From NCBI GenBank assembly GCA_024399835.1, contig JAKSNK010000015.1, forward strand, positions 1-40,092: 40,092 nt of DNA, read 5' to 3'. This stretch comes from Paludibacteraceae bacterium. GTDB taxonomy: Bacteria; Bacteroidota; Bacteroidia; Bacteroidales; Paludibacteraceae. A model generated the notes under the pieces. The model saw nothing but the letters and a program-made list of their open reading frames with translations, was not told where the DNA came from and ran no database searches. Position numbers and translations under genes: made by a program. How positions within the stretch are numbered: the stretch's first letter is position 1; each line of letters begins with the position of its first letter. This document shows, in pieces, positions 20,453 to 40,092 of this stretch.

Positions 20453-20899
<447 letters not shown>

Positions 20900-28539: not shown

Positions 28540-28584
28540 TCTTTTAGGCATTTTTTTCAAAAAAAACAAAAAACCGTCTTTTTT

Positions 28585-28628
28585 CTGCCAAAATGTCAGC
28601 AATGTCAGCATTTTTATTTGTTTGGCAG
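28585..28628 (+). promoter_or_regulatory. Probable activator or repressor sites upstream of groES
   Basis: Two tandem copies of ATGTCAGCA (28593-28601 and 28602-28610) lie inside an inverted repeat, CTGCCAAA (28585-28592) and TTTGGCAG (28621-28628). TGTCAGCA and its inverse also occur before clpB. The sites end about 15 bp before the -24 element. Confidence 0.6.
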
Positions 28629-28641
28629 AACGGCATTTTGT

Positions 28642-28658
28642 TTGGCACACTATTTGTA
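28642..28658 (+). promoter_or_regulatory. Sigma-54-like (-24/-12) promoter of groES-groEL
   Basis: TTGGCACACTATTTGTA. It has GG at 28644-28645 and the -12 G at 28656, with exactly 10 bases between, as the sigma-54 class requires. The -12 dinucleotide is GT rather than the preferred GC. No TAnnTTTG element with a matching TTTG is present in the groES leader. The predicted transcript starts near 28669, leaving a 50-nt leader. Confidence 0.6.
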
Positions 28659-28718: not shown

Positions 28719-28991
28719 ATGAAAGTAACTCCATTGGCAGATCGCGTACTGGTTAGACCGGTCGCTGCCGAAACAAAAACGGCTGCGGGCATTATTATTC
28801 CCGACAGCGCCAAAGAAAAACCCCTGAAAGGTGAAGTTATCGCCGTTGGTCAGGGTACCAAAGATGAACAAATGATTCTCAAAGCAGGTGACACCGTGTT
28901 ATATGGCAAGTATGCCGGCACCGAGATTGAAATCGACAACGAGAAACTGCTTATTATGCGTCAGAGCGACGTCCTCGCCATCCTCGCATAA
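28719..28991 (+). CDS. groES: Co-chaperonin GroES
   Basis: 90 residues, the normal length. The start is MKVTPLADRVLVRPV; the mobile loop that touches GroEL is TAAGIIIPDSA; VLYGKYAGTEIEI and the DVLAIL ending follow. It caps the GroEL chamber. The stop overlaps the first base of an octamer repeat that fills the gap to groEL. Confidence 0.97.
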   Translation: MKVTPLADRVLVRPVAAETKTAAGIIIPDSAKEKPLKGEVIAVGQGTKDEQMILKAGDTVLYGKYAGTEIEIDNEKLLIMRQSDVLAILA

Positions 28992-29036: not shown

Positions 29037-30665
29037 ATGGCAAAAGAACTTATTTATAATATTGAGGCGCGTGATGCCCTCAAACGTGGTGTTGACCAGT
29101 TGGCTGACGCCGTAAAAGTTACCCTTGGTCCGAAGGGTCGTAATGTGATTATTGACAAGAAATATGGTGCTCCTCATATCACCAAGGACGGTGTAACCGT
29201 TGCCAAGGAGATTGAACTGCCCGATGCACGCGAGAATCTGGGTGCTCAACTCGTTAAAGAAGTTGCCAGCAAGACAGGCGACCAAGCCGGTGACGGTACA
29301 ACCACTGCTACCGTTTTGGCACAAGCCATCGTAGGCGTAGGACTGAAGAACGTGACCGCAGGTGCCAACCCGATGGACCTGAAACGCGGTATAGACAAAG
29401 CCGTTGCTGCCGTTGTTACGAACATCAAAGAGCAGAGCGAGGTGGTCGGTAACGACTTCGACAAGATTGAGCAAGTGGCAACTATCTCCGCCAACAACGA
29501 TGCCGAAATCGGTAAACTGATTGCTGACGCCATGCGCAAAGTCAGCAAAGACGGCGTTATCACTATTGGCGAAGCCAAGGGCATGGACACCACCATCGAC
29601 GTGGTACAAGGTATGCAGTTTGACCGCGGGTATATCAGCCCCTATTTTGTCACCAATACCGAGACCATGGAAGCAGAAATGGATAAGCCCTATATCCTTA
29701 TCCACGACAAAAAAATATCCAATCTAAAGGAACTGCTTCCTGTTCTCGAACCGGCAGTACAGAGCGGCCGTCCGTTGCTGATTATTGCAGAGGATGTAGA
29801 TAGCGAAGCATTGACCACCCTGGTTGTAAACCGTCTGCGTGCGCAACTGAAGATTTGCGCCGTCAAGGCACCCGGCTTTGGCGACCGTCGCAAAGAGATG
29901 TTGCAGGACATTGCCATTCTGACAGGCGGTACCGTTATCAGCGAAGAGACCGGCATCAAGTTGGAGCAAGCCACATTGGAGATGTTGGGTACGGCTGAGA
30001 ATGTAACTATCAGCAAGGACAATACGACTATCGTTAACGGTGCAGGCGACAAAGAAGCCATTGCCAACCGTATTGCACAAATCAAGGCACAGATTGCCGC
30101 TACCAAATCGACCTACGACAAGGAGAAACTGCAGGAGCGTCTTGCCAAACTTGCAGGCGGTGTAGCCCAACTCAATGTAGGTGCTGCCTCCGAGGTAGAG
30201 ATGAAGGAGAAGAAAGACCGCGTAGATGATGCCTTGAGTGCTACTCGCGCTGCCATTGAAGAAGGTATCGTACCCGGTGGCGGTGTCGCTTATATCCGTG
30301 CGCAAGAGGCGTTAAAGGGTCTCAAAGGCGAGAACGAAGACGAGCAGACCGGTATTGAGATTATCCGCCGTGCTATCGAAGAGCCGCTCCGTCAGATTGT
30401 GAAGAACGCCGGCAAAGAAGGTGCTGTCGTAGTAGATAAAGTCCGCAACGGCAAAGGCGACTTCGGCTACAATGCCCGCAAGGACGAGTACGAGAACATG
30501 AAAGCAGCCGGTGTGGTAGATCCCGCCAAGGTTACGCGCGTAGCATTGGAGAACGCTGCCAGCATCGCAGGCATGTTCCTGACCACCGAATGCGTTATCA
30601 CGGACATCAAGGAAGAGAACCCCGCTCCTGCTATGCCTAATCCCGGTATGGGAGGAATGATGTAA
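29037..30665 (+). CDS. groEL: Chaperonin GroEL
   Basis: 542 residues. Family segments are [14 protein letters not shown], the ATP-binding [13 protein letters not shown], and the apical [31 protein letters not shown] follows, and the C terminus is Gly/Met-rich (NPGMGGMM). It folds proteins in a double heptamer ring with GroES. It is co-transcribed with groES from the promoter at 28642. Confidence 0.98.
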
Positions 30666-32454: not shown

Positions 32455-34509
32455 TTATTTTGTGCCGAATATCAATTCGCCGTTTTTGAGAGAGACGACG
32501 ACAGGTTGCGAGGGGTCTATCTGTCCGGCGATGATGCGCTTGCTGAGTTCGTTGAGAACCAACCGCTGCAAGGCGCGTTTGACGGGTCGTGCCCCGTACT
32601 CGGGGTCATAGCCCTCGTGGGCGATATAGCGGACAGCATCGTCGGTAACGCGCAGATCGATATTCTGCTCCATGAGCATGGTATGAATACGCGCCACCTG
32701 CAGTTTGACCACTTCGCAAATATGGTCTTCGTTCAGTTCGTCGAAGTGAATGATATCGTCTATCCTGTTGATAAACTCGGGTCGGACGGAAGCACGCAGC
32801 TGTTCCTCCGTCAGGTTGGTGGTAAGTATAATCAGGGTGTTCTTGAAATTGACCACGCGTCCCTTATTGTCGGTCAGCCGTCCGTCGTCCAATAGTTGCA
32901 GCAGGACATTGAACACATCGGGATGTGCTTTCTCCATTTCGTCAAAGAGGATAACCGAATAGGGTTTGCGGCGAATGGCTTCGGTGAGTTGTCCTCCCTC
33001 GTCGTAACCGACATATCCGGGAGGCGCTCCTATGAGGCGAGTGGCAGAGAATTTCTCCTGATACTCGGACATGTCTATTCGCGTAATCATATTCTCGTCG
33101 TCAAACAGATAGTCTGCAAGTGCTTTGGCGAGTTCGGTTTTTCCTACGCCTGTAGTTCCCAAGAAGATAAAACTGCCTATAGGTCGTTTGGGGTCTTGCA
33201 GTCCGGCACGGGCACGGCGTATGGCATCGCTGACGGCGCTGATGGCTTCGTCTTGCCCGATAACGCGCTTGTGCAGTTCTTCCTCAAGGTGAAGAAGTTT
33301 GTCTTTTTCGCTCTGCATCATCCTGTTGACAGGAATGCCTGTCCACCGTGCCACAATCTCGGCGATGTCGTCGGGATCGACTTCCTCCTTGATAAGCGTT
33401 TGTCCGCCTACATTGCGCAAGGCGTCTTGGGCAGCGGATATGTTGGCTTCAGCTTGTTTGAGTTTGGAGTAGCGTATCTCCGCCACTTTGCCGTAGTTGC
33501 CTTCGCGCTCTGCCACTTCGGCTTCGTGCTTGAGCTGCTCTATATGTGCTTTTTCGTTTTGGATAGTAGCGACATAACCTTTCTCTTTCTGCCACTGGGC
33601 ATCCAATTGTGCGCGTTGGGCATTGAGGTCATCGAGTTGCTGCCCGATGGCAGCGAGTTTGGTGGTATTCTTCTCCCGTTTGATAGCTTCGCGTTCTATC
33701 TCAAGTTGTTTAATTTGCCTGTCGAGGTTGTCCAGCTCTTCGGGTTTGCTATCGACCTCCAGCCGCAGTTTGGCAGCCGCCTCATCTATGAGGTCAATGG
33801 CTTTGTCGGGCAGGAAGCGGTCGGTTATGTACCGTGAAGAGAGAGTGACGGCAGCAATGAGCGCATCGTCCTTGATGCGCACCTTGTGGTGTGTCTCGTA
33901 GCGTTCTTTTAGTCCTCGCAGAATAGAGATAGTGGCTGCCTCGTCGGGTTCGTCCACCATGACTTTTTGGAAACGGCGTTCAAGTGCTTTGTCGGTCTCG
34001 AAGTATTTCTGGTACTCGTCGAGGGTGGTAGCACCGATGGCGCGCAGGTCGCCACGGGCAAGAGCCGGTTTGAGTATATTGGCAGCATCCATTGCGCCGG
34101 AGGACTTGCCTGCACCGACGAGGGTATGTATCTCGTCGATAAAGAGAACTATCTCGCCTGTGGCGGCAATCACTTCGTTGATTACGCCTTTTAGCCGTTC
34201 CTCGAACTCGCCCTGGTATTTGGCACCGGCGATAAGAGCACCCATATCGAGGGAATAAATCTCTTTGCGTTTAAGGTTCTCGGGCACATCGCCACTAATG
34301 ATACGCTGTGCCAGTCCTTCGGCGATGGCGGTCTTGCCCACGCCGGGTTCGCCGATAAGTATAGGGTTATTCTTGGTTCGACGAGAGAGTATTTGCAGTA
34401 CACGGCGAATCTCTTCGTCTCGTCCGATAACGGGGTCTAATTTGCCGTCTTTGGCTCTTGCGCAAAGGTTGATGGCAAACTTGGATAAATTTTCATTGTT
34501 CTTTTCCAT
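32455..34509 (-). CDS. clpB: ClpB-type disaggregase without the N-terminal domain
   Basis: 684 residues against about 860 for full-length ClpB. The protein starts at the linker ([20 protein letters not shown]), so the roughly 150-residue Clp_N domain is missing. The first ATPase domain has Walker A GEPGVGKT (53-60) and [10 protein letters not shown]. The coiled-coil middle domain, the ClpB hallmark, spans about 250-375. The second ATPase domain has GTTGVGKT (451-458), the pore loop GAPPGYVGY and the end signature [11 protein letters not shown]. After LTTN, some 25 residues found in other ClpBs before VRPEF are also absent. It extracts proteins from aggregates with the DnaK system. The ATG at 34509 is the first; no Clp_N is encoded upstream. 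Confidence 0.92.
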
Positions 34510-34580: not shown

Positions 34581-34596
34581 ACAAATACCGTACCAA
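34581..34596 (-). promoter_or_regulatory. Sigma-54-like (-24/-12) promoter of clpB
   Basis: Minus strand TTGGTACGGTATTTGT. GG at 34594-34593 and the -12 G at 34582 are separated by exactly 10 bases. The element shares TTGG, the AC at the next positions and TATTTGT with the groES promoter. The predicted start near 34570 leaves a leader of about 60 nt. Confidence 0.58.
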
Positions 34597-34607
34597 TGGC
34601 AAGACGA

Positions 34608-34624
34608 CTGACATTTTGTCAGCA
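34608..34624 (-). promoter_or_regulatory. Palindromic site upstream of clpB
   Basis: CTGACA and TGTCAG form a perfect 6-bp inverted repeat separated by 3 bp (34608-34622). One arm extends to TGTCAGCA (34617-34624), the 8-mer present twice before groES. It lies 12 bp above the -24 element. Confidence 0.6.
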
Positions 34625-34635
34625 AGTGGCAGACA

Positions 34636-35044
34636 ACAACAAAGGTCTAAATAACAAATAATAAAGAATAAAGAATAAGCTCGCACCAACGCGGAGGGAC
34701 GGGAAGAGTTAAGTGGTACGAACAGAGTTTAATCGGTGAACCGGTGAGTTGGTGAATCGGGGAAACGGTGAATCGGGGAAGCGAGGGAAACGGAATAAAT
34801 AATAAATAATAAATAACAAATAATAAATAATAAGCTCGCACCAACGCGGAGGAACGAGAAGAATTAAGTGGTACGAACAGAGTTTAATCGGTGAACCGGG
34901 GAGTTGGTGAATCGGTGAACCGGGGAAACGGGGAAACGGAATAAATAATAAATAACAAATAATAAATAATAAGCTCGCACCAACGCGGAGGAACGGGAAG
35001 AGTTAAGTGGTACGAACAGAGTTTAGGGGATACAACAAAGGTCT
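34636..35044. repeat. Compound repeat array: 54-bp unit x3 with octamers and AT-rich tracts
   Basis: A 54-bp unit beginning AAGCTCGCACCAACGCGGAG occurs at 34677-34730, 34832-34885 and 34971-35024, with 1-3 differences. Copies 1 and 2 are each followed by 50-60 bp of GAATCGG-type octamers and then a tract of AATAAATAATAAATAACA-like units leading into the next copy. The whole array is bracketed by a 13-bp direct repeat, ACAACAAAGGTCT (34636-34648 and 35032-35044). No open frame of interest is found in it. It lies between clpB and a small-protein operon. Confidence 0.9.
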
Positions 35045-35635: not shown

Positions 35636-38600
35636 TTATCTCATTGGAGCACCGATTGCGTTGAATTTCTTGCCGTCGCGGAAGATGAACATGTGGTTGT
35701 TCATAATCACTTTCATTACTCCGTTTTCAGCATTCATGAGCAGTTGCTCGTTGTCGGTCGTTTGGCTGCGAGGAGTGCCGAATGCCAAGCGGCGAGGAGC
35801 AGCCATGCCGGCAGGAACTTTGGTCACGGTGGGCACTTCGCTCAGGTTGATGTAAGCGCGGTTGGCAGGGATAAGCACGCCTTCTGCCATCGGCTGAATC
35901 TTCGTGCCATAAACGCCGTGCCATACTTCGCCCTCTGTGGTGTAAGATACATAAGTGTCTTCCAGTACGCCATAGAAACCGCGTGCATCGATTTCATCAG
36001 CAGGTGATGTCTCAGGTTCGTAAACGAAGTAAGCAGTACGAGCAGTATAGTAGAACAAGTATGCTTGACCGGCATTGAGTGTAGCATTTTCATCAAGTTC
36101 GTTGAAGTACATTTGGTGAACACTTTCGTCCTTGTAGTCTGCCTCGTAGAAAGTAGCGCCTAAGGTGTTAGCCACTTTGACATCGTACGGCAAGCAGAGA
36201 GTAGCATATCCGCTACCGCTGCGAGAGTAGTCGTAATCGGATATTTCAACCGAAATCTCATAGAAGCGGCAAGAAGCATCTGCGCGTACATAGTACGAAC
36301 CACCAAGAACCTTAATACTCTTCTTCTCCAATACATATTGGTCAGAAGTATAAGCAATCAAAGCGTCCTCCACACCGGCTTGGTCTGATTTAGCAATAAA
36401 TACAGAACGCAAGTTACCACTACTACCCGTGCAACCGACCAAATTGATGATGCATACTTTTCCTTCGGGAACATTGATGCGGATTGCCTTTCCGTCTTTT
36501 TCCTTCGCAGGTTGCATCTTCAAATCGTGTGCATAGTCCTTAGCACCACAAGATAGAGCATCATTATTTTTGTTATACGAGAGACTACTTCCAACTTCCC
36601 AACTCATTCCAGAAACAGGGTCAGTGAAAGTCCTCGGACCAAAGTCGGTCATCTTAGAACCATCGAAGATAACAAATTTCGGGTCAGTAGAAACAGAGAA
36701 GGCGATGCTGTATGTTTTAACAGTTGTACCGTCTTCGGCGGTTACCTCAATAGTTGTGGTGCCTGTAACAGACTCTGCATCGGTCTTAACAACCGAAGCG
36801 AACTCATCATTCTTTTCAAACAGGACATTGGGCAGTTCCGTTGTTCCGTAATCAAGAACCACGCTATAATCTGTTGTCTCAGCATCAAATTCAGGAGTCA
36901 AGGCATATCCTGCCACCTTCAACGATTTAAGTGTAGCATCCGTGCCCATCGGCGGAATCTCATACTTAATATTGGTGATATTGCGAGAACCATCGGTAGC
37001 ATAAATGTAATATGTACCCGGCAATACACTTACCTCGTAATCACCTGCTGTTGTCGTGCCGATAACAGCGGCTTCTGTTTCACCCTCTTTAATCATGCGC
37101 ATATCACCCTTTCCTGAGATAGTCAGTTTTCCGCGCGTACCTATAATAAATTGTATTGCACGCGAAGTAGGAATAGCACCACTCATTTGGGCTTGACCTT
37201 TCAGATAAATATACTCATTCTTAAATTCAGGTGTTCCTGCTTCACCATCTTTCTTGCTTGCATCACCTAAGGTATTGAAATAGGCATTGTCCGACAGACC
37301 GGCAGCATATTGACTACTCGTTCCCGAAACACTTGCGGGCGCGATGACTGCTTTTGCATAGGATCCTGCTGCCATTGCGGTGAGGACTTTTTCATATTCG
37401 AAGACAACCGAATAATTTGCCTCGTCACCATTTTCAGCGGTAACTGTAAAGGTGGCTTTCATAGTTTGAGCAGTAGCTTGTGTTACTTCTCCTGCAGTAG
37501 CTTTTTCGCTATTGGCTTCGTAAGTAACGATTGGTAAGTTGCTGTCGTGCGGTAAAGTAACATTATATTCCACTTGGTTGGGAACTAAAGTAATGTCAGT
37601 ATCTCCATATTTGAGCCATGCCAACGAATTGTCAGCATCCTCAGAAACGAAATGAGCATACAAGGTAATATCGGAAGCCGGACTAAACTTGTCACCTGCC
37701 ATACCGATAAGTTTACCCTCAGTTTCGGCATCATACCAACCTTGGAACTCGCCTTCGCCGGTAGCAGCAGGCAATTCAAGAGCAGTACCCTTGAAATACA
37801 TCGGGTCTATTTCGCCACCGTTGGCGAAGGTAACTTTGTAAGGATCAGTAATTGTGATAGCTTGAATAACATTGTAGTCGCCACTATTGGTTGCATACAT
37901 GTATGTTCTTTCATTATCAGAATAATAGTATGTAACAACAGAAGCACCTGTTGACTGAGGATTAGAACCTACAAGATTTGTGTAATTTGCTCCTCCATCA
38001 ACTGAGAACTTAGCAGAGTTATTCTTAATAGAGCCCATCGTTAAGACAACTAATTTCTTAGCTGCTACATCAAATGCAATCGTTGTGCCACTATTTTTTA
38101 TCTTCAAGCCCTTGTCTGCAGGTTTGCCATCAGGTTTGTCCCACGAAACATTGGTCATAGAAGACAATATATAATGATGATTTGACAACTCTGTTTCAAT
38201 ATTAGCGGTATGCTCTGGAGTGGTAGTTTTACTATAATTTTCATCAGCTAATGCCATGAAATCAATGGTAGTAGCATAGTCGTCTTTCTCTTTGAAAGTA
38301 GCAGAAACGGTGACAGCGTATGCAGGCATAACGAATGAGTTGCCAGTAACCGTTACTTTGGTTGCCTCTTCGTCAGTTTTGTAAACACTCCACTTGTCTA
38401 ACATATAGCCACTAGCAGGAATAGCAACCAAAGCGACATTCTCACCCTCAACGGCAGTGACTTTTTCGGTTAAGCCCTTAACTGTGAACGAGCCATTTGT
38501 TGCTGGATTCAAAGTAATATTATGAGGAGTACTACCTGTGATAGAGATAGATTGGATAAGGTTCCATTGATAAACCCCACCAGTACCTGGACAACCGTTG

Positions 38601-40092
38601 TTGATTTTAATAACAAAAAGAGTTTCTTCGGTTGTTGTATAGGTGTATTCTTTGGGTTCGCCAGTACCTTGAGGATCTGCGCCATATATTGTTTCATAGC
38701 TTGCGCCACCATCTACAGAGACACCGGCAGTACCTTTATCTACACCTTCTAGAGTGCCGACTTTGATTTTTACGCATTTATCGGCTGCTACCCAGAAAGA
38801 GAGTGTTGTACCTGACTTTTCAATTTTCAGACCTCGGTCAGCTTGAGCAGAAGGTTGGTCATCCCAAGAGACATTATCCATTGAAGATATTGCGTAGTTA
38901 AGACCAGACAAGAATGTACTAATATTCGGTTTTGTACCTGTAGCGGCAGCTACGAAATTAGCAGTTTGAGCATATGCTTTATCCCATTTGCCATAAGCGG
39001 TAAGGTCGTCATCGATAGTCTTGGTAGCAAAATTGATAGCATTACCTTCAGTAGCGGCATCAAACCATCCTTGGAATGTAGCCAAAGGTTGATTTTGGTA
39101 GGAGGTATATTCGGATGCTTTTTGACCTTTATCCACCGTTTCTGTACCAAGTGTCGTTGTGCCGTTCATATAAGTAACGGTATATACTTTTACCCATTGG
39201 GCAACATATTCTGCATCGTCATTAGGCATTACAGGAGGAACTTCAGGATTCCAACCATCAAAGCGGTAGCCCTCACGCTCTACAACAGGAGCCGTCAGAG
39301 GTGTACCTGCCTCTACTTGTCCTGCAGGAGTACCCGGAGTTTTTATAGTACCTTCACCAATTGCCCATGTTAAAGTATGTTCTTCACCTTGCCATTTAGC
39401 AGTATAGGTGGTAGAAGCAGAAATAGTAGTTGTTTTGGCTACTGGATTTTCGCCGTTGTACCAGCCCCTGAATTTCATGCCATCATGGTCAGCTAATACA
39501 GGCAGTTCGCAATCCAAGAACAAGTTGCCCAATTCCTCGTTAGCTGTAGCAGAAACAGCATACTTGGTTGCCTCACCATCCTTGAAAGTAGCAGTAATAG
39601 GAGCAGTTGAAACAGTTATAACAAGTTTACTAATTTCAAGACTACTCTTAGTAGAACCGCAATAATATTTACCTGCAGGCATATCATTATTTACCGTTGC
39701 ATCTTTCTCCGTTTTTCCACTTCCTGTTAATGAGAAATAGGGATTTGAATAATCAAATGTACGCGTTGCTTCTGTAACTTGTGATTCAGGAATAATCACA
39801 AATATATTAGAGGAATGAATTGTAGCATTTTTTACCTTACCAGTTTTTCCTTCTGGAATAACGAAAGTAATAAAACGAGAATCACTTTCTCCATTCATTC
39901 CTCCCGCAAATTTTACATGGTTATTTGCTGTTTTTGTAGAATATTTCCATTCAGAAGATAAAACGCTCTTAACAGAAGTGCCATCAATCAAAGTAAAGTC
40001 CTCCGATGAGCCACTAATGGTTTTTCTTTGCCAAACAGCAGTCAGTTCGATGTCGCTTGTGACAGGAGAGTCGAAATTGTAATCTGCACCTT
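35636..40092 (-). CDS. Giant repeat-rich surface protein, 5'-truncated
   Basis: At least 1485 codons; the frame is open to the window edge, so the start and any signal peptide are missing. The TTG near 39991 is not a start. Residue numbers below count from it. InlB/Listeria-Bacteroides-type repeats occur at about 130-200, 205-266, 268-336 and 718-780 (FxGWYDAxTxG, TxYAxW), with a divergent one at 489-566. Between them are similar beta-sandwich modules: 343-486 and 577-715 clearly match (GLKIxxSGTTxxFxVAxxK, SVDGGAxY). Weaker relatives are at about 880-1010 and 1105-1250. A cadherin-like beta domain (DATLKSLKVAGYAL) is at 1018-1100. The end, MKVIMNNHMFIFRDGKKFNAIGAPMR-like, is a conserved Bacteroidales C-terminal tail. 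Probably an adhesive or glycan-binding surface protein; no catalytic motif is seen. Confidence 0.85.
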   Translation of the reverse strand, partial: GADYNFDSPVTSDIELTAVWQRKTISGSSEDFTLIDGTSVKSVLSSEWKYSTKTANNHVKFAGGMNGESDSRFITFVIPEGKTGKVKNATIHSSNIFVIIPESQVTEATRTFDYSNPYFSLTGSGKTEKDATVNNDMPAGKYYCGSTKSSLEISKLVITVSTAPITATFKDGEATKYAVSATANEELGNLFLDCELPVLADHDGMKFRGWYNGENPVAKTTTISASTTYTAKWQGEEHTLTWAIGEGTIKTPGTPAGQVEAGTPLTAPVVEREGYRFDGWNPEVPPVMPNDDAEYVAQWVKVYTVTYMNGTTTLGTETVDKGQKASEYTSYQNQPLATFQGWFDAATEGNAINFATKTIDDDLTAYGKWDKAYAQTANFVAAATGTKPNISTFLSGLNYAISSMDNVSWDDQPSAQADRGLKIEKSGTTLSFWVAADKCVKIKVGTLEGVDKGTAGVSVDGGASYETIYGADPQGTGEPKEYTYTTTEETLFVIKINNGCPGTGGVYQWNLIQSISITGSTPHNITLNPATNGSFTVKGLTEKVTAVEGENVALVAIPASGYMLDKWSVYKTDEEATKVTVTGNSFVMPAYAVTVSATFKEKDDYATTIDFMALADENYSKTTTPEHTANIETELSNHHYILSSMTNVSWDKPDGKPADKGLKIKNSGTTIAFDVAAKKLVVLTMGSIKNNSAKFSVDGGANYTNLVGSNPQSTGASVVTYYYSDNERTYMYATNSGDYNVIQAITITDPYKVTFANGGEIDPMYFKGTALELPAATGEGEFQGWYDAETEGKLIGMAGDKFSPASDITLYAHFVSEDADNSLAWLKYGDTDITLVPNQVEYNVTLPHDSNLPIVTYEANSEKATAGEVTQATAQTMKATFTVTAENGDEANYSVVFEYEKVLTAMAAGSYAKAVIAPASVSGTSSQYAAGLSDNAYFNTLGDASKKDGEAGTPEFKNEYIYLKGQAQMSGAIPTSRAIQFIIGTRGKLTISGKGDMRMIKEGETEAAVIGTTTAGDYEVSVLPGTYYIYATDGSRNITNIKYEIPPMGTDATLKSLKVAGYALTPEFDAETTDYSVVLDYGTTELPNVLFEKNDEFASVVKTDAESVTGTTTIEVTAEDGTTVKTYSIAFSVSTDPKFVIFDGSKMTDFGPRTFTDPVSGMSWEVGSSLSYNKNNDALSCGAKDYAHDLKMQPAKEKDGKAIRINVPEGKVCIINLVGCTGSSGNLRSVFIAKSDQAGVEDALIAYTSDQYVLEKKSIKVLGGSYYVRADASCRFYEISVEISDYDYSRSGSGYATLCLPYDVKVANTLGATFYEADYKDESVHQMYFNELDENATLNAGQAYLFYYTARTAYFVYEPETSPADEIDARGFYGVLEDTYVSYTTEGEVWHGVYGTKIQPMAEGVLIPANRAYINLSEVPTVTKVPAGMAAPRRLAFGTPRSQTTDNEQLLMNAENGVMKVIMNNHMFIFRDGKKFNAIGAPMR

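Follow-up and report, generated by a model that had tools for sequence, protein, structure and literature searches.

A palindrome in phase with predicted sigma-54 promoters joins groESL, clpB and dnaK in a Paludibacteraceae bacterium and points to a candidate activator

Background

Members of the Bacteroidota make up a major part of gut and many environmental communities, and the literature excerpts and listings consulted here name no dedicated regulator of their chaperone genes. The window analysed in this study, a stretch of 40,092 nucleotides (contig JAKSNK010000015.1, assembly GCA_024399835.1, a Paludibacteraceae bacterium), carries groES-groEL on one strand and clpB on the other and raises the question as to whether these operons answer to a single regulator and, if so, to which. 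An initial annotation had argued from the rare promoter type and the upstream site common to both operons that they belong to one proteostasis regulon with one regulator, and this core idea is supported both by the conservation of the elements in relatives and by their absence, as a combination, from 809 control leaders. The heat-shock nature of such a regulon in this organism is presumed. The assembly comprises 1,759,035 bases (1.76 Mb) and is 85% complete. Features are listed in Table 1.

Table 1 Positions of genes, predicted promoters and palindromes. Coordinates refer to the window unless a locus or contig is named, and distances between palindrome and promoter are counted from the 13-bp core
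Feature	Position	Strand	Details
groES	28719..28991	+	NCBIfam NF001531 GroES, 126 bits against a cut-off of 96
groEL, downstream of groES	29037..30665	+	NCBIfam TIGR02348 GroEL, 851 bits against a cut-off of 582
clpB, 684 aa, without N-terminal domain	32455..34509	-	TIGR03346, 1125.7 bits, under the cut-off of 1232.1
Predicted groES sigma-54 promoter TTGGCACACTATTTGT (-24 GG, -12 GT)	28642..28657	+	Predicted start ~28669
Predicted clpB sigma-54 promoter TTGGTACGGTATTTGT	34581..34596	-	Predicted start ~34569, 5' leader ~60 nt
groES palindrome CTGCCA-AAA-TGTCAG, core TGCCAAAATGTCA at 28586-28598	28585..28599	+	43 bp before promoter, centre ~-77
clpB palindrome CTGACA-AAA-TGTCAG, perfect dyad	34608..34622	.	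12 bp before promoter, centre ~-46
Extra TGTCA half-site after the groES palindrome, within the second TGTCAGCA copy	28603..28607	+	Putative function
P0003, HTH-bearing sigma-54 activator (bEBP)	L004:868-2043	-	AAA+ 226.5 bits; Fis-type HTH PF02954, residues 350-390, 56.3 bits
Sigma-54-like sites without a dyad	C23:11016 (L023), C42:2376 (L029), C43:23270 (L030), C2:36714 (L016), C24:11264 (L025)		

A common predicted promoter

A 10-bp spacing from GG to G had been claimed for both clpB and groES, and both sites indeed read GG-N10-G, with 10 bp between the -24 and -12 elements and GT at -12; this arrangement with TTTGGCAC is, on its letters, the -24/-12 form of a sigma-54 promoter. The genome holds what such promoters need, namely an rpoN gene (domain PF04552, 177.5 bits) and two strong sigma-54 activators (PF00158), P0003 and P0004. 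The pattern TTGGNACNNNATTTGT has exactly two matches in the whole assembly, those of groES and clpB, and none when read backward. A looser pattern, TTGGNACNNNNTTTG, matches the same two sites in the window against 0.19 expected, a count reached by 3 of 100 shuffles, and has 17 matches assembly-wide against 6 for the backward control, seven of the 17 being intergenic and including those of groES, clpB and dnaK. Both window promoters end in the TATTTGT previously singled out as shared, but this likeness is partly coincidence: dnaK reads GCGTTTGT, so that only TTTGT is conserved across the promoters. The -24 element of dnaK lies within an inverted repeat, GCCGTGCC...GGCACGGC (L013, ~1545-1567).

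In order to follow the promoter in relatives, groES leaders were taken from 80 Bacteroidota loci, of which one lacks groES (L051) and one, with a leader of 68 bp (L057), was dropped; with our own leader added this gave 79. A sigma-54-like site scoring at least 10 of 13 is present in 59 of them.

Chaperone genes are often under another kind of control, HrcA and its CIRCE element governing groE and dnaK in many phyla, and ordinary heat-shock control of this kind or through a heat-shock sigma factor would leave the sigma-54-like sites unused. HrcA gave no match in 61 genomes of relatives, compared with matches in 7 of 14 control genomes, and no CIRCE-like site was found in the window at up to 3 mismatches. 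In excerpts of a Flavobacterium psychrophilum study, moreover, the mapped starts of the same genes have a sigma-54 motif (PMC9723704). HrcA/CIRCE was rejected on its absence from the 61 genomes and from the window, and we regard heat-shock control of the ordinary kind as very unlikely.

The clpB gene has features of its own. Its product matches positions 150-852 of the 853 in TIGR03346 and is taken to lack the N-terminal domain because the match begins only at position 150; its Pfam domains are AAA_2, AAA_lid_9 and ClpB_D2-small, with Clp_N absent from the list. A shortened ORF of ~685-760 aa is found in 36 of 37 genomes of the genus, our own included, the remaining one having a 382-aa fragment, and ClpB in other families of the order is mostly ~860-910 aa long and once 747. 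Judging from these sequences, the loss of the domain seems to be genus-wide. The predicted sigma-54 promoter stands immediately 5' of the shortened gene. Upstream of the clpB palindrome the window has a 139-bp tandem repeat (34731-35025, two copies, 89% matches) accompanied by short AATCGGTG and AATAAAT arrays, and at 35636-39991 on the minus strand a 1451-aa ORF with Listeria-Bacteroides and InlB-type B repeats and no NCBIfam family, whose product is perhaps a cell-surface protein. Chaperone genes are clustered in the nearest named relative, RUG13776 (L032), as well, since dnaK and groES are ~8 kb apart there, on opposite strands.

An inverted repeat upstream of the promoters

The perfect CTGACA-N3-TGTCAG palindrome reported before clpB was found, and the unit common to the groES and clpB leaders is CTGNCA-WWW-TGNCAG, hereafter the dyad. 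The two leaders had also been said to share the 8-mer TGTCAGCA, which is present at both, at 34617-34624 for clpB (plus strand, opposite the gene) and at 28594 and 28603 for groES (gene strand), but is not the conserved unit. It was rejected as a functional word because the dyad explains its presence and four of its 7 matches in the window (1.53 expected) lie outside these leaders; its difference in strand is immaterial, the real site being the dyad. A further perfect inverted repeat, TTCTGCCAAA (28583-28592) with TTTGGCAGAA (28621-28630), spans the groES operator region in addition to the dyad.

A third copy of the dyad lies before dnaK on a different contig. Assembly-wide CTGNCANNNTGNCAG occurs at six places, and the three with an all-A/T centre are the groES, clpB and dnaK leaders; the remaining three overlap long ORFs (L009, L012, L014). 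TGNCANNNTGNCA, expected 0.94 times in the window, occurs there 4 times, at the groES and clpB sites and at 20477 and 29912. The form TGNCAWWWTGNCA is found at 15 places in the genome against 2 for the backward control: four precede groES, clpB, dnaK and the gene of the HTH-bearing activator, nine fall in ORFs and two precede unassigned genes.

Half-sites such as TTTTGGCA resemble a -24 element, TGCCA...TGGCA being similar to TTGGCA, and one might therefore read the dyad as two head-to-head -24-like elements that bind additional RNA polymerase. The middle base of the dyad varies, however (TGACA, TGTCA, TGCCA and TGGCA all occur), while sigma-54 promoters keep GG, and at the activator gene the dyad comes after a TAnnTTTG box. 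The reading was rejected on the variable middle base and we consider it highly improbable.

Leaders of clpB and dnaK were compared using the best 30 loci for each gene among 61 genomes together with 20 and 16 further regions, giving 50 and 46 leaders. TGNCA-N3-TGNCA is found in 51/79 groES, 37/50 clpB and 31/46 dnaK leaders, against dinucleotide-shuffle means of 0.5, 0.14 and 0.22. Within the genus it occurs in all 30 clpB leaders examined, 24 of them at 11-12 bp, and in all 26 of dnaK; in other families of the order the exact dyad is much rarer (7/20 clpB, 5/20 dnaK), many of these leaders still keeping a sigma-54-like site and half-sites. The element is thus kept before groES, clpB and dnaK in close relatives, where its absence would have spoken against the proposed regulon.

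The strict 15-mer performed poorly over longer distances. In six named genomes it was found at 32 places (0, 6, 12, 11, 2 and 1, against 3, 4, 2, 5, 6 and 1 for the backward control), which is not above the control in three of the six, and none of the 15 places with loci precedes a chaperone as read from translations; beyond these 15, one place coincides with the groES dyad of Prevotella denticola. The strict 15-mer was accordingly rejected as a phylum-wide marker, the looser TGNCA-N3-TGNCA being the shared form.

Spacing between dyad and promoter

The distance from dyad to promoter was analysed in 96 of 175 leaders having a promoter score of at least 10 and a dyad 0-125 bp upstream. A first automatic choice of promoter gave odd gaps (-6, 6, 15, 24, 48) in 7 of 60 clpB and dnaK leaders, and the statistics use the rule of a score of at least 10. 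Gaps between the dyad core and TTGG cluster at 10-12, 20-24, 31-33, 42-44, 52-56, 63-64 and 74-77 bp. At a period of 10.5 bp the Rayleigh length is R=0.82 (n=96), with 0.78 for groES (n=39), 0.91 for dnaK (n=28), 0.87 for groES with one leader per taxon label (n=27) and 0.96 for the twelve htpG, grpE and lon sites. With the phase origin (1 bp) taken from the data, 92 of the 96 distances lie within 2.6 bp of a whole helical turn, where about half are expected. Ninety-two of the 96 dyads stand 10-77 bp before the promoter; three lie farther away, at 109, 121 and 123 bp, and one leader has an additional dyad at only 4 bp. Shared ancestry of the leaders makes the p-values for phasing too low; when every distinct distance is counted a single time, p=0.0002 remains for all leaders and p=0.004 for groES.

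Control leaders, taken from the same loci, were the 260 bp that precede other ORFs no shorter than 150 aa, and a promoter score of at least 11 was required. Promoter and phased dyad occur together in 28 of 79 groES leaders and in 0 of 809 control leaders, in which taken singly a dyad is found 25 times and a good sigma-54 site 10 times; the combination is therefore far from equally frequent before unrelated genes. Chance, or common descent of leader DNA devoid of regulatory meaning, might be argued from the looser matches in the window, which are not extreme alone (two promoters against 0.19 expected, 3/100 shuffles). Against this stand the empty control set, the uniqueness of TTGGNACNNNATTTGT in the genome, with only its two copies in the assembly, and the recurrence of the arrangement in many taxa with changing spacers and half-sites. 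The controls led us to reject this explanation, whose probability we put close to nil, and the view that two operons would hardly share promoter and upstream word by chance holds good.

Other genes carrying the dyad

A scan made without preselecting genes showed the elements to recur before dnaK, htpG, grpE and lon, which are among the genes that had been suggested for such a search. Nine of the ten genomes of the genus that are at least 95% complete and at most 5% contaminated were scanned (G008 was omitted), and CTGNCAWWWTGNCAG was found at 56 places against 3 for the backward control. Thirty-seven of these precede clpB (8), dnaK (7), groES (7), htpG (6), grpE (4), lon (2), secA (2) and the activator gene (1), as called from translations. 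Checking one example each placed HtpG above its cut-off, and GrpE, a partial Lon and a partial SecA matched only their own families, below the cut-offs. At both secA dyads the associated sigma-54 site is weak or missing. Among the other 19 places, four lie inside the htpG coding sequence and 15 elsewhere; the dyads within htpG, each in a different genome (L224, L246, L255, L264), are perhaps due only to conservation of the protein. The sharing of a rare promoter and of an upstream site led us to propose one proteostasis regulon with one regulator.

A candidate activator gene

P0003 is the only HTH-bearing sigma-54 activator found in the assembly, at its completeness of 85%. It is devoid of a sensor domain, has the Walker motifs GESGVGKE and GGTLFLDEVGE and carries GAFTDA in place of GAFTGA in the sigma-54 contact loop. 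Among 27 orthologues in the genus, 22 including P0003 have GAFTDA, two have GAFTGA (L176, L200) and three were unmatched by the script; the loop of the Flavobacterium orthologue (L104) is GAFTGA. P0004 consists of a receiver and an AAA+ domain with no HTH listed. In all ten genomes of the genus that are at least 95% complete two activators were found, the second ending after the AAA+ domain in each as judged from the C-terminus, and a third match was seen in two less complete genomes (G024, G025).

In our genome the dyad lies 7 bp before the ATG of the P0003 gene. It is present in 17 of 30 leaders of this gene, our own included, and missing from 13, and in all 17 it comes directly after TAnnTTTG, the housekeeping -7 box; this being where a repressor would be placed, we propose that the gene is autorepressed. 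Outside the genus a dyad was found in 1 of 23 leaders (0/3 and 1/20), and 7 of the 20 have instead TAATTTTGTCA, a half-site on the -7 box.

The P0003 gene is followed by lptE (PF04390) and preceded by the contig end, on a contig different from that of groES. Of the 80 groES loci 18 contain an orthologue, which in 16 cases shares the strand of groES and lies 1.9-4.3 kb upstream of it; in Flavobacterium cerinum (L104) the order is bEBP-lptE-ORF-secG-groES-groEL, with lptE and secG named from translations. At E < 1e-100 the protein has a match in 58 of 61 genomes. P0003 was singled out by elimination and by the dyad at its own gene, its neighbourhood to groES and its presence in relatives, and we infer from these that it activates the chaperone genes.

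The sigma-54-dependent promoters might alternatively be served by P0004 acting from solution, with an unrelated repressor or co-regulator at the dyad. P0004 does combine a receiver with a sigma-54 activator domain, all 10 near-complete genomes that were inspected encode such a protein, and sigma-54-like sites devoid of a dyad in the same genome imply that a dyad-free mode may exist. A repressor site, however, would need no helical phase with the promoter across seven spacing classes, and the dyad is also found on the promoter of the HTH-bearing activator gene, itself a neighbour of groES in 16 of 80 loci. We judge this alternative unlikely, if the strongest of those set out here.

There are five further sigma-54-like sites with no dyad up to 130 bp upstream (Table 1), four intergenic and the last one at an ORF edge, overlapping the end of an ORF. 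They precede genes for a MoxR-type ATPase, an OmpR-type regulator, a lipocalin, a ferritin-like protein and a small exported protein, with the last two assigned by visual inspection, and may be served by the activator that lacks an HTH.

Proposed mechanism

What can be read from the DNA itself are the promoters and dyads, their phasing, the membership of the regulon, the copy of the dyad at the activator gene and the gene neighbourhood. Together these make it probable that groESL, clpB and dnaK form one sigma-54 proteostasis regulon, whose promoters would be opened by the lptE-linked bEBP bound at the dyad, a protein that would also repress its own gene. RNA polymerase with sigma-54 would wait at a TTTGGCAC-N4-TTTGT promoter. 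Upstream, a single PspF-like AAA+ enhancer-binding protein (bEBP) that carries a Fis-type HTH at its C-terminus and lacks a sensor domain would bind CTGNCA-WWW-TGNCAG and, from the same face of the helix as the promoter, would open it. The site would act from one to seven helical turns away, with its centre at ~-46 (12-bp gap) to ~-110 (76-bp gap). At one turn the DNA in between is too short for the usual loop, and contact would be direct; a centre near -46 would lie just outside the expected polymerase footprint, and adherence to whole turns across short, stiff DNA agrees with direct contact along a single face. The same protein would also occupy the dyad copy that covers the start of the housekeeping promoter of its own gene, thereby repressing itself.

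As the bEBP has no sensor domain it is likely to be controlled by a partner protein. Free chaperones act as partners in other chaperone circuits, and by analogy we speculate that they might do so here. On a wider reading, this sensor-less protein encoded next to lptE would be the master regulator of chaperones throughout the Bacteroidota, acting over one to seven rigid turns with no long loop, repressing itself and being held by free chaperones until misfolded protein releases it. This reading is tentative, and we would sooner doubt than accept it in full.

Comparison with known systems

In F. psychrophilum sigma-54 promoters (SM4 motif) have been mapped before groESL, lon, dnaK, grpE-dnaJ, htpG, skp and clpB, and a table in the excerpted study lists a sigma-54-dependent regulator transcribed together with lptE, at a distance of four locus tags from groES (PMC9723704). 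The promoter type and chaperone genes are the same as ours; the excerpts leave the activator open, give no operator and raise the possibility of different clusters being served by three PF00158 proteins. The present work adds, in Bacteroidales, a dyad with its phasing as well as a candidate activator. Chaperone orthologue groups are also enriched among predicted sigma-54 targets in Bacteroidota, in a study whose excerpts name no upstream site or cognate activator and whose main text does not contain the terms 'UAS', 'bEBP' or 'palindrom' (PMC12316311). The initial annotation had held that the regulon was not described for Bacteroidales; as far as the excerpts of these two studies go, sigma-54 chaperone promoters are already published or predicted, and the statement therefore applies to the site and regulator only. 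In the open-licence literature no operator, phasing or activator for these chaperone genes was found. A sigma-54 chaperone regulon is thus known in kind, and the dyad, the phasing and the candidate self-repressing activator are the new part. Now that there are candidates for both gene and site, and a rule for the spacing, the gap concerning the regulator is accessible to simple tests in laboratory strains.

The HrcA/CIRCE system likewise has an inverted repeat common to the groE and dnaK leaders, but its sequence and promoter are unlike those described here and HrcA is found in 0 of 61 genomes. Enhancers of the NtrC/NifA type comprise a dyad upstream of a sigma-54 promoter and depend on the face of the helix, and in both respects resemble the present arrangement. 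They differ in distance: as given in excerpts of one paper, usual enhancers lie ~100-150 bp upstream and act by DNA looping (PMC7057263), whereas most dyads here are within 1-5 turns of the promoter. The spacing here is much shorter than those 100-150 bp, and the rule it follows is a natural experiment on the minimum distance between an activator and a sigma-54 promoter.

In domain structure the bEBP resembles PspF, having an AAA+ domain and a Fis-type HTH with no sensor domain. PspF structures are among the PDB matches of P0003, but the best of these matches are to an NtrC-family regulator, FleQ and ZraR. PspF negatively autoregulates. Linkage to psp genes was not encountered, lptE being downstream in our genome and the order in L104 being lptE-ORF-secG-groES. 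According to the excerpts cited for enhancer distance, partner proteins control sensor-less bEBPs, PspF and HrpRS among them (PMC7057263). The present bEBP differs from PspF in adjoining lptE and secG instead of psp genes, in its predicted targets, which are cytoplasmic chaperones, and in having sites as near as -46.
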